NCBI RefSeq assembly: GCF_002214585.1
Contig: NZ_CP014862.1
Location: forward strand, 1,612,001-1,676,000
Length of the DNA stretch: 64,000 nt
DNA from: Thermococcus profundus
Lineage (GTDB): Archaea; Methanobacteriota_B; Thermococci; Thermococcales; Thermococcaceae
Direction: 5' to 3'
Shown: positions 7,753-38,112 of the stretch, piece by piece
How positions within the stretch are numbered: the stretch's first letter is position 1
Layout of the letters: each line of letters begins with the position of its first letter
Position numbers and translations under genes: made by a program
The notes under the pieces: generated by a model
The model's input: the letters and a program-made list of their open reading frames with translations, nothing else
Database searches by the model: none
Told to the model about the DNA's origin: nothing

Positions 7753-7931
7753 TGCACTTCAGGATAAGGAAGTGCCCAAACTGCGGCAGGTACACACTCA
7801 AGGAGGTCTGCCCTGTCTGCGGGGCTAAAACCAAGGTAGCCCACCCGCCGCGCTTCTCACCGGAGGATCCCTACGGGGAGTACCGCAGAAGGCTGAAGCG
7901 CGAGCAGATGGGCATAGCGAGGGGGGAGTGA
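7752..7931 (+). CDS. nop10: Nop10, H/ACA ribonucleoprotein and ribosome biogenesis protein
   Basis: This is a 59-residue protein. Cys8, Cys11, Cys20 and Cys23 (KCPNCGRYTLKEVCPVCG) form the zinc knuckle of archaeal Nop10, and HPPRFSPEDPYGEYRRRLK is the conserved linker and helix that packs on the pseudouridine synthase Cbf5. Nop10, with Cbf5, Gar1 and L7Ae, forms H/ACA particles. The ATG overlaps the aIF2-alpha stop, the arrangement usual in archaea. A candidate H/ACA guide RNA occurs in this same window at 52789-52848. Confidence 0.96.
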   Translation: MHFRIRKCPNCGRYTLKEVCPVCGAKTKVAHPPRFSPEDPYGEYRRRLKREQMGIARGE

Positions 7932-7932
7932 G

Positions 7933-8736
7933 ATGAAGGAGTCGTTCGTGTACATGCTCGAGAGGCCAAAGCTTAGGGATCCCGTCTTCATCGAGGGGCT
8001 CCCTGGAATAGGTCTCGTCGGAAAGCTCGCCGCGGATCACCTTATACAGGAGCTCAACGCGGTCAAGTTCGCCGAGCTCTACTCACCGCACTTCATGCAC
8101 CAGGTTCTCATCAAGAAGGGCTCGATAGTAGAGCTGATGAAGAACGAGTTCTACTACTGGAAGAATCCGGACGAAGAAGGAAGGGACGTCATCATAATCA
8201 CCGGCGACCAGCAGGTTCCGCCAACCGACAGCCCCGGCCACTACGAGGTCGTTGGGAAGATGCTGGACTTCGTCAGCGAGCTGGGGGTCAGGGAGATAAT
8301 CACCATGGGCGGCTATCAGGTGCCGGAGCTCCAGGGTGAGCCGAGGGTTCTCGCAGCCGTAACCCACGAGGAGCTCGTTGAGTACTACAGGAAGAAGCTT
8401 GAGGACTGCAAAGTCGAAGTTGTCTGGAGAGAGGATGAAGGAGGGGCAATAGTCGGCGCCGCCGGCCTGCTCCTCGGCATCGGCAAGCTCCGCTCAATGT
8501 ACGGCATAAGCCTCCTGGGGGAGAGCCTCGGATACATAGTCGATCCGAAAGCCGCTAAGGCCGTCCTTTCTGCCGTAACGAAGATCCTCGGAATACAGGT
8601 GGACATGTCGGCCCTCGACGAGAGGGCCAAGGAGACCGAGGAGATCCTCAAGAAGGTCCAGGAGATGCAGAGGGCGATGCTGGAGCAGGGCATGCCCCAG
8701 TCAACGCAGGAGGAAGAGGACAGGGGCTACCTTTGA
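7933..8736 (+). CDS. PAC2-family protein (proteasome assembly chaperone-like)
   Basis: The 267-residue protein opens with DPVFIEGLPGIGLVGKLAADHLI, the typical PAC2/DUF75 N-terminus, followed by TGDQQVPP and REIITMGGYQVPEL. The last 40 residues are charged and helical with KETEEILKKVQEMQRAM, resembling the C-terminal tail by which archaeal Pba proteins contact the proteasome 20S core. Which of the archaeal PbaA/PbaB-type proteins it corresponds to cannot be settled here. The ATG follows the nop10 stop directly, with GGGGGGAGTGAG upstream, so it is the last gene of the aIF2-alpha operon. Confidence 0.85.
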   Translation: MKESFVYMLERPKLRDPVFIEGLPGIGLVGKLAADHLIQELNAVKFAELYSPHFMHQVLIKKGSIVELMKNEFYYWKNPDEEGRDVIIITGDQQVPPTDSPGHYEVVGKMLDFVSELGVREIITMGGYQVPELQGEPRVLAAVTHEELVEYYRKKLEDCKVEVVWREDEGGAIVGAAGLLLGIGKLRSMYGISLLGESLGYIVDPKAAKAVLSAVTKILGIQVDMSALDERAKETEEILKKVQEMQRAMLEQGMPQSTQEEEDRGYL

Positions 8737-8842
8737 ACCTCCTTTCATAACTTTCCTCGCAGTTTCAATACCCTGACTGAGAACTACAGCCCGAAAGTCC
8801 CTAGAACATAGAAAGGTTAAACAGCCAAAAAAAATGGAAAAC

Positions 8843-10213
8843 TCAATCCTTAATTGCCTCCTCCAGAAGCCTAATCCCGATCTCAAGGTACTCCTCAGCT
8901 TTCTCCTCGCTCTTCGCCTCACTGAAGACCCTGATTATCGGCTCGGTCCCGCTAGCCCTCACGAGCACCCAGCCGTCCTCGAAGAGTATCTTCGCCCCGT
9001 CGGTGGTGTCTATCTTGTAGCCCCTATTCTCTGCTAGCTGAGCCACCTTGGCGACGATTGCTTTTCTGTCGCCTTCAACGTGCCTCTTCGTCTTGAACTG
9101 ATAGTACTTCGGAAGTTCGTCTATAAGCTCGCTGAACTTCTTTCCGCTCTTCGCGAATATCTCAACTATCTTCGCCGTCGTCATCGCCCCATCCCTGCCG
9201 AGCACGAAGTCCGGGAAGATAACGCCGCCGTTCTCCTCGCCGCCGATGGTGCCGTTGTTCTCTAGGAGAGCCCTGGCAACTATGAGGTCTCCAACCTTAG
9301 TTCTCATGATCTTTGCACCGTTCCTCTTGGCTATATCGTCGAGCAGGTTCGAGGTCGCTATTGTCGTAACCAAAAGCCCTCCACCTTTCTCCCTCAGCAC
9401 GGCATCCGCAACGAGGGCGAACGTCTTATCGCCCTGGATGAAGCGGCCGTTCTCGTCGATGAAGACGGCCCTATCGGCGTCTCCGTCCTGGGCAACGCCG
9501 AAGTCGGCTCCGAGGGCCTTAACTATCTCCTTGAACTCCCTCAGATTCTCCTCGTTTGGCTCCGGGTTTCTAGCTGGAAAGTGGCCGTCCGGGTGAGCGT
9601 TTACCGAAACGACCTTGCATCCAAGTTCCCTCAGGAGGTAGGGCAGAGTAAGAGAACCGGCACCGTTCGAGGTGTCCACGACAACGAATGGTTTCCTCTT
9701 CTTTATCGCCTCAACGTTAACCCTGTTTTTTATCGCCTCGATGTAGAGCTTCACTATGTCCTCATTCCTCAACTCACCTATCTCGTCCCACTTTGCCCTG
9801 TAGAAGTCCTCATTGAAAAACAGCTCCTCAACGATTGCTTCCCTCTCCTTCTTCAGCCCCATGCCGTTCGGTTCAAGGAGCTTTATGCCGTTGTATTCCG
9901 GTGGGTTGTGAGAGGCAGTTATAACGGCTCCACCATCAGCGTTGAAGTGGTCGGTCGCCCACTGGATCGCCGGGGTTGGGGCTATTCCAACGTCTATGAC
10001 GTCGCAGCCAGTGCTCAAAAGCCCGCTTATGAGGGCATCCTTCAGCATCTCGCCGCTCACCCTCGTATCTCTGCCGACAACGACGAGCGGTCTCTCCCTG
10101 CCTTCCCTCTTTAGGAGCGTCCCAAAGGCCATGCCGATTTTAAGGGCGAACTCGGGCGTTATCCTCTCGTTCGCTATCCCCCTAACGCCGAAGGTTCCAA
10201 AGAGCTTTCCCAT
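8843..10213 (-). CDS. Phosphomannomutase / phosphoglucomutase family enzyme
   Basis: This 456-residue alpha-D-phosphohexomutase is cytoplasmic. It shows the active-site serine loop ITASHNPPEYNG (Ser101), the Mg-binding AQDGDADRAVF near residue 240, the sugar-binding GGEENGGVIFPD, and the phosphate-binding RASGTEPIIRV near the end. It interconverts hexose 6- and 1-phosphates. Sitting 1 base behind the mannose-1-phosphate guanylyltransferase, it most likely supplies mannose-1-phosphate for GDP-mannose, with phosphoglucomutase activity possible. The start MGKLFGTFGVRG is standard for the family; the extra upstream codons lie inside the intergenic junction. Confidence 0.9.
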   Translation of the reverse strand: MGKLFGTFGVRGIANERITPEFALKIGMAFGTLLKREGRERPLVVVGRDTRVSGEMLKDALISGLLSTGCDVIDVGIAPTPAIQWATDHFNADGGAVITASHNPPEYNGIKLLEPNGMGLKKEREAIVEELFFNEDFYRAKWDEIGELRNEDIVKLYIEAIKNRVNVEAIKKRKPFVVVDTSNGAGSLTLPYLLRELGCKVVSVNAHPDGHFPARNPEPNEENLREFKEIVKALGADFGVAQDGDADRAVFIDENGRFIQGDKTFALVADAVLREKGGGLLVTTIATSNLLDDIAKRNGAKIMRTKVGDLIVARALLENNGTIGGEENGGVIFPDFVLGRDGAMTTAKIVEIFAKSGKKFSELIDELPKYYQFKTKRHVEGDRKAIVAKVAQLAENRGYKIDTTDGAKILFEDGWVLVRASGTEPIIRVFSEAKSEEKAEEYLEIGIRLLEEAIKD

Positions 10214-35021: not shown

Positions 35022-35122
35022 TCACTCACCCTCCACCGGTTGAAGGTAAGAAAAGCTTATAAACGCACCTCCCAAAGTGGCGTTAGGTCGAACGAGACTC
35101 AGGATCATATGAGGTGAGAAGA

Positions 35123-35515
35123 ATGGCCATCTGGCAGGGAAGATCACTCAAAAAGCCTTCAGGTGGAAGGATCGTTCTCGCTAGGAAGAAGAGGAAAAGG
35201 GAGCTCGGAAGAGAGCCGGCCAACACGAAAGTTGGAGAGGACAGGGAGAAGAGGAAGATCATAAGAACCTACGGCGGCAACAGGAAGGTTCGCCTAATCG
35301 AGGCCCTCTACGCCAACGTCTTCGAGGGCGGAAAGGGAAGGAAGGTCAAGATACTCAACGTTATTGAGAACCCCTCAAACAGGCAGTACGCGAGGAGGAA
35401 CATCATCACCAAAGGGGCCATCATCGAGACCGAGGCCGGCAAGGCCATCGTCACCAGCAGGCCCGGCCAGGACGGGGTTGTCAACGCCATTCTTATCAAG
35501 GAAGAGAACGCCTGA
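35123..35515 (+). CDS. rps8e: Small-subunit ribosomal protein S8e (eS8)
   Basis: The 130-residue protein [17 protein letters not shown]...[16 protein letters not shown] is a full-length archaeal eS8, a 30S protein. The start ATG follows GAGGTGAGA; an in-frame GTG three codons before overlaps that ribosome binding site. The promoter AAGCTTATAAACG lies at about 35053-35065, leaving a leader of roughly 35 bases. It is monocistronic here: upstream is the divergent Ski2-like helicase, downstream the convergent AlbA_2 gene. Confidence 0.96.
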
Positions 35516-35574
35516 GCTCTTTTCTCCTTTAAACCACTTTGGCTTTTCTTAACAGTTAAGCGTCACCGTAAAGC

Positions 35575-35643
35575 ACTGTAAATGGAAAAAGTTTACAGTA
35601 AACGACCCCCAGCGTAAAATTTTGGGGTTTACGTGAGTTAACG
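35575..35643. promoter_or_regulatory. Downstream copy of the AlbA_2 operator-like module
   Basis: The block is a direct repeat of 36945-37013 at a constant offset of 1370 bases. It contains the inverted repeat ACTGTAAA (35575-35582) / TTTACAGT (35592-35599), the perfect palindrome GTTTAC-A-GTAAAC, and 22 bases (35611-35632) identical to the upstream copy that include GTAAA...TTTAC. It reaches just past the AlbA_2 stop codon. On the reverse strand AAACTTTTTCC resembles a TATA region, but no gene follows before the 3' end of S8e. Confidence 0.7.
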
Positions 35644-36930
35644 GTTCAGGAGGTAACGCCTCTGAGAGCCCCTCCCTTCGCTCCTCACGAGGCCCCATCC
35701 CTCAAGTTTCTTGAGCCTCTTAAGAAGGGTGGGCTTTGATATTCCAAGCTCTTCCGCAAGTTCCCCGCTTCTCCTGGGAGTTTCCAGAGCCGATAGGATT
35801 TTTCTGTCAAGTTCATCGAGCAGTCTGCCTGCCCATTTGTGGAAGATGACCTCGAATCTGTTTGCCCTGGTTTTAAACTCAACACCGACGAGGCCGTGTT
35901 TCTTGCACTCTTCCCTTATCATCCTCAGGCCATAACCGTACTTCTCGATGTAGCCGGCATCGTAGAGGAGAGAGCACAGGTTGGGATTCCTCGGAACGTG
36001 TTCGGGGTCGTTTAGATCAACTCCCGGCATTAAGCCCCCAGGGTTTCTTATCACAAGCCTGTCCGGGTAAACAAAAACCCTGACGTCCGCTGGGATGGCA
36101 TAGTTCCTGTGGGCAAAAGCGTTTATCAAAGCTTCTCTAACCGCCCTTGGGGGATATTCCGGGAGCTTAACCCTCTTCGTCCCAACGACAACTTCGTACG
36201 TCCTGAACTCCCGTGTGAGGGTGTAGAACATGTCATCAACCACGCGCCAGACCGGGCCTGAGAACTCGACGCTCTTTACCGCCTCGTCCCCCTGCATCCA
36301 CACTATCCTACCCCCTGAGTGGGGTATAAAGTCGGTGGCATCCGTGAAGAAGAGAACCCCCGCGTTCGTCAGGCGTTCTCCCTTCACCGCCTTCGAACTC
36401 CTAAGGTATCTCATCCAATCCTCTCTAGGTATCTTCCTGCCCCTGGCCCTCTCAAGGGCGGAGAAGAACCACTCCACGTATTCATTTTTCATCTCTGAAA
36501 GGTCAACCAGTGGGAACTCGTCCCACGTTACAGTCCCCATCTCAGCGGAGAGCATCAGGATTTCCTGGACTGAGAGGGGTCTGATGCTGGAGCCAATTCG
36601 TATGTAAGCGACCCCCCCGATGGAGCACAGCGTCTTTGACCTTGGAACCTCCACGACGAGAACGTCCTTATCTCCGACGCGGACCACGTTAGTTTTCACG
36701 CTTATCGGTGGAGTTATGTTCTGAAGCGCCGAGGACAGGACTTCCTTCGCCTTCTTGGTGTCCACTCCAACGATTCGGCCCTCGTCCGAGACCCCAATAA
36801 GCAGGTAGCCGCCCTCAGCGTTTGCCATGGCGCAGATTTCTCTCGCTATGTTGGAGGTTGCCTTGGCTTTGAACTCAACCCTCTCGTTCTCCCCCTCCCT
36901 GAGGAGTTCTATAAGGGATTCCACATTCAT
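35638..36930 (-). CDS. AlbA_2 (Schlafen-type) domain protein with winged-helix tail
   Basis: This is a 430-residue cytoplasmic protein. Residues about 8-115 form the AlbA_2/SLFN domain (ERVEFKAKAT, EICAMANAEGGYLLIGV, VGGVAYIRIGSSIRPLS). The middle has REALINAFAHRNY, VFVYPDRLVIRNPGGLMPG and GYGLRMIREECKKHG, the HATPase_c_4 block seen in archaeal and bacterial members. The end (from about 375) is a winged helix with LAEELGISKPTLLKRLKKLEGWGL. Such proteins are often called transcriptional regulators and some are linked to phage defence. The start MNVESLIELL is chosen because the earlier frame lies in the operator. Both flanks carry the same operator-like module. Confidence 0.88.
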   Translation of the reverse strand: MNVESLIELLREGENERVEFKAKATSNIAREICAMANAEGGYLLIGVSDEGRIVGVDTKKAKEVLSSALQNITPPISVKTNVVRVGDKDVLVVEVPRSKTLCSIGGVAYIRIGSSIRPLSVQEILMLSAEMGTVTWDEFPLVDLSEMKNEYVEWFFSALERARGRKIPREDWMRYLRSSKAVKGERLTNAGVLFFTDATDFIPHSGGRIVWMQGDEAVKSVEFSGPVWRVVDDMFYTLTREFRTYEVVVGTKRVKLPEYPPRAVREALINAFAHRNYAIPADVRVFVYPDRLVIRNPGGLMPGVDLNDPEHVPRNPNLCSLLYDAGYIEKYGYGLRMIREECKKHGLVGVEFKTRANRFEVIFHKWAGRLLDELDRKILSALETPRRSGELAEELGISKPTLLKRLKKLEGWGLVRSEGRGSQRRYLLNR

Positions 36931-36944
36931 GTTTATCGTTAAAT

Positions 36945-37013
36945 ACCATAAACCTAAAAAGTTTATGGTAAACAACTTCTAGCGTAAAATTTTGGGGTTT
37001 ACAGAATTTAACG
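36945..37013. promoter_or_regulatory. Upstream operator-like module over the AlbA_2 promoter
   Basis: TACCATAAAC (36944-36953) and GTTTATGGTA (36961-36970) form a perfect 10-bp inverted repeat centred on CTAAAAA. On the reverse strand the spacer makes the TATA-like AACTTTTTAGG, about 28 bases before the ATG. A second inverted repeat GTAAA-N9-TTTAC lies further upstream (36984-37002). A protein bound here would cover the TATA box, so repression, perhaps autogenous by the encoded winged helix, is the simplest reading. See the matching copy at 35575-35643. Confidence 0.75.
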
Positions 37014-37032
37014 ACAAAGAGAGCAAAAGAGG

Positions 37033-38112
37033 TCAGAGCTCCAGCTCTTCCCGGTACTTCCTCAGCTCCTTCTCCATGATCCTTCTCGCCTGCTCCTCGA
37101 CCATCGGCTTGACGAGTCCTATAACCCGCTCCTTAAGCTCATCCAGGCCCTCGCCGTTGAGCGCCGAAATCCTTATCGGCTCGAGTCCCTTGGAGCGGAC
37201 AAACTCCTCGATGGCCTTGATCTTCTCCTCCTCGGCTATGTCCACCTTGTTGAGCACCACTATGAACGGGAACTCGCCGAACTCACGGTGGATCTCCTCA
37301 AAGAGGTGGGTCTGCTCTTCTATCGGATAGCCACAGTATTCGCTTGGATCGAAGATGTAGACGATAACCTTTCCAAGGTGCTTCAAGGCCAGTATAGCCT
37401 GCCTCTCCACCTCGTTCCTCTCGCTAAGCGGTCTGTCGAGGAGGCCCGGCGTATCGATCACCTGGTACTTGAGGTAGTGCTCCTCGAACTGGCCGACGTT
37501 TATGCCCTTTGTTGTGAAGGGATAACTGGCAACTTCGGGCTTCGCGTTGGTTAGAGCCCTCAGCAGGGTGCTCTTACCAACGTTGGGATGGCCTGCTATG
37601 ACTACAGTTGGAAGCTCAAGATCGACGACTGGAAGGTCCTTCAGCACGTTCCTGGCCTGGTTGAGGTACTCAAGGTCGTCTTTAATGTCCTTGAGAACGT
37701 CGGCAACACGGCCGTAGAAAGCCCTCCTGAGCCTCGCCATCTCAACTGGGTCCCGTGAATAGCGGATTTTCTCAACGTATCTCTGCTCGAGGTTTCTGAT
37801 GGTCTTTATTGCCCAGTTCACCCTTCCGAGGGAGCGGTGGAACTGGTCTCTATCGACGAGCGTATCAACGAGCTCCCTGTAGAAAGCCGGAAGCTCCGAG
37901 ACTCCGGGGGTTCTGTCGAGGAGTTTGCGGAGGTTGTCCCTTATCACGTTGGAAACCGTCCTCACTCTGAGCTCTTCCCTTCCCCTAGCCTTGGCTCTGG
38001 GGCCGCCCTGGGGAGTGAAAGCCGAAGCCGCCTTCTCGGCCCTCCTGAAGGCCTTGTCGATGAGCTCATCAGCGGTAAGAACCGTGGGCATCTTCTCAAA
38101 CGGATTCTTCAT
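37033..38112 (-). CDS. Nog1-family GTPase
   Basis: The 359-residue GTPase has an N-terminal helical domain of about 165 residues, typical of Nog1. The G domain follows: G1 VIAGHPNVGKSTLLRAL, G2 around YPFTTKGINVG, G3 VIDTPGLLDRP, G4 VVLNKVDIAE and G5 RISALNGEGL. Eukaryotic Nog1 acts in large ribosomal subunit assembly and the archaeal proteins are presumed to do the same. The ATG follows GAGGTGAG. A 70-residue membrane protein gene lies upstream on the same strand, 82 bases away. The downstream 20 bases lead into the AlbA_2 operator. Confidence 0.92.
   Translation of the reverse strand: MKNPFEKMPTVLTADELIDKAFRRAEKAASAFTPQGGPRAKARGREELRVRTVSNVIRDNLRKLLDRTPGVSELPAFYRELVDTLVDRDQFHRSLGRVNWAIKTIRNLEQRYVEKIRYSRDPVEMARLRRAFYGRVADVLKDIKDDLEYLNQARNVLKDLPVVDLELPTVVIAGHPNVGKSTLLRALTNAKPEVASYPFTTKGINVGQFEEHYLKYQVIDTPGLLDRPLSERNEVERQAILALKHLGKVIVYIFDPSEYCGYPIEEQTHLFEEIHREFGEFPFIVVLNKVDIAEEEKIKAIEEFVRSKGLEPIRISALNGEGLDELKERVIGLVKPMVEEQARRIMEKELRKYREELEL

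Follow-up and report, generated by a model that had tools for sequence, protein, structure and literature searches.

A Thermococcus profundus AlbA_2-family regulator gene lies between two copies of an operator-like array in a candidate exchangeable cassette

A single regulator gene in the genome of Thermococcus profundus is enclosed by two copies of an operator-like repeat, and this arrangement raises the question of whether the repeats serve the regulation of the gene, its movement between genomes, or both. The window, here meaning the whole 64,000-nucleotide stretch that was analysed, contains the following features at this locus, with half-sites read along the gene:

35120 to 35515, forward strand: rps8e (ribosomal protein S8e; PF01201, 3.2e-41), the convergent neighbour on one side of the insertion site
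35562 to 35644, reverse strand: downstream array, a direct repeat of the upstream one, kept after the stop codon in 13/22 orthologues
Half-sites of the downstream array: 35638-35644 (holds the stop codon), 35628-35635, 35611-35618, 35592-35599, 35575-35582, 35565-35572
35638 to 36930, reverse strand: AlbA_2-HATPase_c_4-winged-helix gene, 430 amino acids, defined by Pfam matches and by an ATG at 36930 that is conserved among orthologues
36932 to 37014, reverse strand: upstream operator-like array, with a homologous array 5' of 21/21 orthologues with an intact start
Half-sites of the upstream array: 37008-37014 (>), 36998-37005 (>), 36981-36988 (<), 36962-36969 (>), 36945-36952 (<), 36935-36942 (<)
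36953 to 36960, reverse strand: TATA-like element TTTTTAGG, between half-sites 4 and 5 and 30 bp before the ATG
37033 to 38112, reverse strand: nog1-like GTPase gene (NOG1_N, 1.7e-38), the upstream neighbour on the other side of the insertion site

The two direct copies align without gaps at an offset of 1370, as a first-pass annotation of this DNA had reported, and extend over 35567-35643 and 36937-37013 with 59/77 bases identical and a longest identical run of 22. The 69-bp module of that annotation is thus part of a larger repeat; its blocks are indeed related (54/69 identical), and the twenty-two bases that it gave as the total of identical positions are the longest uninterrupted run. The 19-mer GTAAAATTTTGGGGTTTAC has exactly 2 matches within the 64,000-nt window, against 0.00 expected, and a search of the whole T. 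profundus genome found no third clear module. With two modules only in its own genome, a regulon or a high-copy repeat was rejected as the nature of the element.

The AlbA_2 gene is the only gene of the cassette, and it reaches into the downstream array with its final two codons and stop (AAC CGT TAA). Its 430-residue product matches PF04326 (2.7e-24), PF13749 (5.2e-19) and HTH_20 (2.6e-8) above the curated Pfam cut-offs, giving the combination of AlbA_2, a RecG-C-like HATPase_c_4 and a C-terminal wHTH that defines SLFN_AlbA_2 / HATPase_c_4 (COG2865-like) regulators and confirming the identity first assigned to the gene. The best fold match of the predicted structure (pLDDT 85) is 3lmm (E 6e-24), followed by Schlafen N-terminal cores. 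Family and fold searches found no recombinase, transposase or nuclease family in this protein. The suggestion of a defence-type cassette gained no support past partial domain matches to the PADLOC argonaute and CARF models, and a known defence system was rejected on that ground. An origin from a virus or plasmid was likewise rejected: relatives are encoded by no viral contig, and plasmid and phage matches lie below 32% identity.

Array anatomy, spacing and arm statistics were derived from 40 related modules. Each array consists of six half-sites of about 8 bp, consensus ACCGTWAA, whose order in gene orientation (> > < > < <) makes the whole nearly symmetrical. Start-to-start steps are mostly 8-9, 17-18, 8 (or 17-19), 17-18 and 9-10 bp, and the variants, a longer central step or a single 27 replacing 18, differ by about one helical turn. 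Such spacing shifts point to a protein that occupies the array along a single face of the double helix.

The inverted-repeat arms described in the first-pass annotation, ACTGTAAA/TTTACAGT and ACCATAAA/TTTATGGT, are present in the sequence. Compensating changes between them had been taken as a sign of selection on complementarity, a claim that fails when arms are shuffled among the 40 modules. The inner dyad in question (half-sites 4/5) has 249/320 complementary positions against 256 +/- 3.6 with shuffled arms, and dyad 2/3 has 244 against 240 +/- 2.9; as the modules are mutually related, kinship would tend to raise, not lower, any covariation signal. The arms of the orthologous upstream copy in G041 match at 3/8 positions only. 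The two compensated changes in the window are genuine, yet they fall within what the repertoire of variants would yield, and arm covariation was rejected as evidence for selection. The same data bear on the idea that the arrays act as RNA hairpins, either a terminator or a processing site, for which the palindromic arms of both copies would speak. We consider this very improbable, given the lack of covariation across the 40 modules, a central step that shifts by about one helical turn of DNA, and an upstream copy that surrounds the promoter and so would mostly not be transcribed from there.

The upstream copy covers the TATA box, as had been proposed, with TTTTTAGG placed 30 bp 5' of the ATG and its TATA-like TTTTT run located between half-sites 4 and 5. 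Half-site conservation is 0.89 upstream and 0.87 downstream, against 0.77 and 0.70 respectively for the spacers. The T-run is retained in 15/16 upstream copies versus 2/11 downstream copies (Fisher P = 0.0001), and the first half-site of the downstream copy, CCGTTAA, includes the stop codon of the gene. With its half-sites conserved and its T-run decayed, the downstream copy looks like a binding array rather than a promoter.

A survey of 94 Thermococcales genomes located orthologues at 60-100% identity in 22/94. Every orthologue with an intact start (21/21) has the upstream array, so that conserved repeated sites overlap the gene's own promoter, as expected of an autoregulated archaeal regulator; modules away from AlbA_2 genes are few, and the proposed tie between module and gene stands. 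Thirteen of the 22 orthologues are bracketed, twelve beside rps8e and one (G001) beside nog1 only. The array is absent at the stop codon in the other 9/22, among them G084, which has a second array 5.4 kb downstream, indicating that the second copy is dispensable for persistence of the gene. This absence argues against a looping or insulating switch, in which the protein would join both arrays, or the downstream array would block antisense transcription from the convergent rps8e, with the duplication selected and mobility incidental. Such a switch would account for downstream half-sites as conserved as the upstream ones despite the decay of the TATA box, and also for the stop-codon repeats of 11-bp period in which paralogues of about 30% identity end (scoring 12-18, where controls reached at most 11). 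Half-sites of solo modules, however, are conserved at 0.85 against 0.71 for their spacers and so can look conserved without a gene, and we regard the switch as rather unlikely.

Rps8e was located in 89/94 genomes, and nog1 adjoins bracketed or solo modules in relatives. Almost all Thermococcus copies lie at this one site, with few new sites seen. The rps8e-nog1 gap holds other DNA, 0.7-2.2 kb, in L047 (G032), L053 (G027), L054 (G018), L058 (G013) and L056 (G025), and may be a general insertion hot spot. In L063 (G001; 7753-9047) and L068 (G055; 1189-2479) the AlbA_2 gene is split across two reading frames, through decay or sequencing error.

Thirteen genomes carry a solo module at the nog1/rps8e site with the gene absent there (one of them, G039, has an orthologue elsewhere). 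The solo occupies the interval from the nog1 end to the rps8e end, or adjoins nog1 where linkage or the contig is broken. Modules without a link to an AlbA_2 gene had been named as the observation that would count against the proposal; gene-less solos do exist, which bears this out in part, yet most of them occupy this one site and are laid out like an empty site or a scar. On the left they are flanked like upstream copies, on the right like downstream copies. Compared with its sister G033, the G044 solo is a mosaic, upstream-type in its left half and downstream-type in its right half. A crossover between the arrays would give such a mosaic; so would integration at a solo array, and the event could have run in either direction. 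Solo sites alone cannot distinguish loss of the gene from an unoccupied target. The solo sites are clean, with no partial gene deletions seen at the rps8e site.

At other loci, AlbA_2 remnants lie directly behind an array in L166 (G075), with a truncated start, and in L174 (G082), where the start codon is fused to the winged-helix end. Solo modules also occur immediately 3' of an ATPase gene, with its stop codon inside half-site 1, at L170:5935-6006 (G031), L169:5224-5302 (G068) and L168:5557-5622 (G001); this looks like the same locus across two genera.

Mapped on a nucleotide tree of rpoB/rpoA, the three states (bracketed, solo, empty) interleave between sisters, requiring 16 state changes against 17.4 with shuffled states (P = 0.29). 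The gene falls into three divergent types, all at the same site, and the unit types conflict with the species tree: G000 and G031 share 0.957 identity in the gene and 0.859 in rpoB/rpoA, and G031 and G061 share 0.70 and 0.911. Array sequences group by type and not by position (0.82 within genomes versus 0.60-0.65 between types). A two-breakpoint model places the tract transferred between G000 and G031 from 490-540 to 1830-1855, inside the arrays (443-524 and 1813-1894) except that the left breakpoint interval runs 16 bp past its array. In two other pairs one breakpoint falls in or at the upstream array, and three further pairs lack this pattern; placement near the edge of the gene could be due partly to the difference in rate between the gene and nog1. 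Comparison of relatives for the whole 1.4-kb unit, as the first-pass annotation had advised, thus finds it present or absent at one nog1/rps8e site, and solo modules, turnover of states and horizontal transfer lend good support to its guess of a mobile cassette. In this comparison a package of about 1.4 kb moves between species, and we infer that it is frequently lost cleanly with a single array remaining.

The bracket is also found outside the Thermococcales. A DPANN (Woesearchaeota) relative at 38% identity is bracketed by repeats of 67-75 nt (85-88%) with CGTAAA/TTTAACG half-sites, and a second genome from the same phylum as the Woesearchaeota (33% identity) has a bracket of 88 nt at 93% with GCGTAAA half-sites; the bracketing pair provides the only strong copies in each of these two genomes. 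In the phylum of the Njordarchaeota contig, one relative (38%) is weakly bracketed by TCGTGAA-like sites, scoring 18.6 against a null maximum of 12.4, and two others have upstream arrays only. The 95th percentile of the bracket score for control ORFs was 13.3, and most top scorers proved to be the AlbA_2 gene itself. The DPANN brackets and that of the Njordarchaeota-contig phylum indicate that the operator-gene-operator form recurs with changing half-sites.

Paralogues of about 30% identity end inside direct repeats that overlap the stop codon, at the 11-bp period given above, the control maximum being drawn from 139 ORFs (L032, L033, L035, L037, L038, L039 and L092:3491-4870). Several of them directly precede a flippase-like gene, the 5' end of which is also present as a duplicate upstream of the paralogue. 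In L022 (G093), the flanks of 1501-2781 place an upstream array and the gene between two direct repeats of about 103 bp, derived from a fragment of the neighbouring gene, an arrangement that resembles insertion with a long target duplication. At L062:10063-11457 (G039), an unrelated ATPase-like ORF near that genome's AlbA_2 gene is bracketed by direct repeats of about 100 bp (bracket score 84; 95th percentile of controls, 13).

Presence or absence at one site and horizontal transfer are properties of transposons and integrative elements, and the cassette might be a mobile element without a known recombinase, whose protein, alone or with a host factor, would excise and insert it with the operators doubling as attachment sites. 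The clean solo sites at rps8e, the interchange of three divergent types at one site, the transfer with both breakpoints inside arrays, and the reappearance of the bracket, with other half-sites, in a second phylum would all be expected of such an element. The protein, however, belongs to none of the recombinase, transposase or nuclease families searched for, orthologues without a downstream array persist, and the Thermococcus copies keep almost entirely to a single site; we judge this explanation unlikely. Looping can be compatible with either this reading or one based on recombination between the arrays.

The explanation that we consider probable is that an autoregulated AlbA_2-HATPase-wHTH regulator, through duplication of its operator array, has become a cassette of about 1.4 kb imported and deleted by recombination. 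The protein would bind several ACCGTWAA half-sites on one DNA face around the TATA box, probably contacting DNA through its winged helix, and when bound at the upstream array would limit its own transcription. The second array, in the same orientation and with its TATA box decayed, begins at the stop codon, and because the arrays are direct repeats the operator-gene-operator arrangement becomes a 1.4-kb cassette. Recombination of array with array would delete the gene and leave a solo array; incoming DNA recombining at the arrays or at the flanking genes would restore a gene, often of another type, at the same site. We presume that swapping proceeds by ordinary homologous recombination and not by a dedicated enzyme; at 75 bp and 70-92% identity, the two repeats offer little length for this process.

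If this is true, autoregulation and gene mobility rest on one DNA sequence. Cultured hyperthermophiles offer a way to test this, because sister species differ by a bracketed gene, a solo array or nothing at one site. It suggests a search for cryptic labile genes among regulators that carry a repeat of their own operator at the stop codon, as Thermococcales paralogues of about 30% identity also do.

A literature search of partial coverage, and therefore weak as evidence, found no description of a regulator bracketed by its own operator arrays. By way of analogy, in solo LTRs and integron cassettes a gene likewise lies between direct recombination sites and its deletion leaves one site; the present locus differs in having no reverse transcriptase or integrase and no cassette array. 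Among autoregulated archaeal wHTH regulators, Pyrococcus furiosus LrpA and Ss-LrpB of the Lrp family are also winged-helix proteins with regularly spaced sites beside their own TATA box, a likeness known here from sequence; the review of these systems describes no stop-codon array, solo sites or cassette turnover (PMC2995911). In the RAYT-REP system, too, palindromic repeats associated with the protein enclose its single gene and also occur without it, but RAYTs are marked by a Y1 transposase domain, and REPs are inverted and numerous (PMC2817692), whereas the repeats here are direct and number one or two per genome, and family and fold searches found no Y1 transposase domain in the bracketed gene's protein. 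Mobile restriction-modification genes with long target duplication share long direct repeats and presence or absence between related genomes, and their repeat is target DNA (titles cited in PMC3874152). A solo module at gene-less sites would fit such a duplication; the repeat described here, in contrast, contains the promoter, travels with the gene to other loci and recurs in another phylum.
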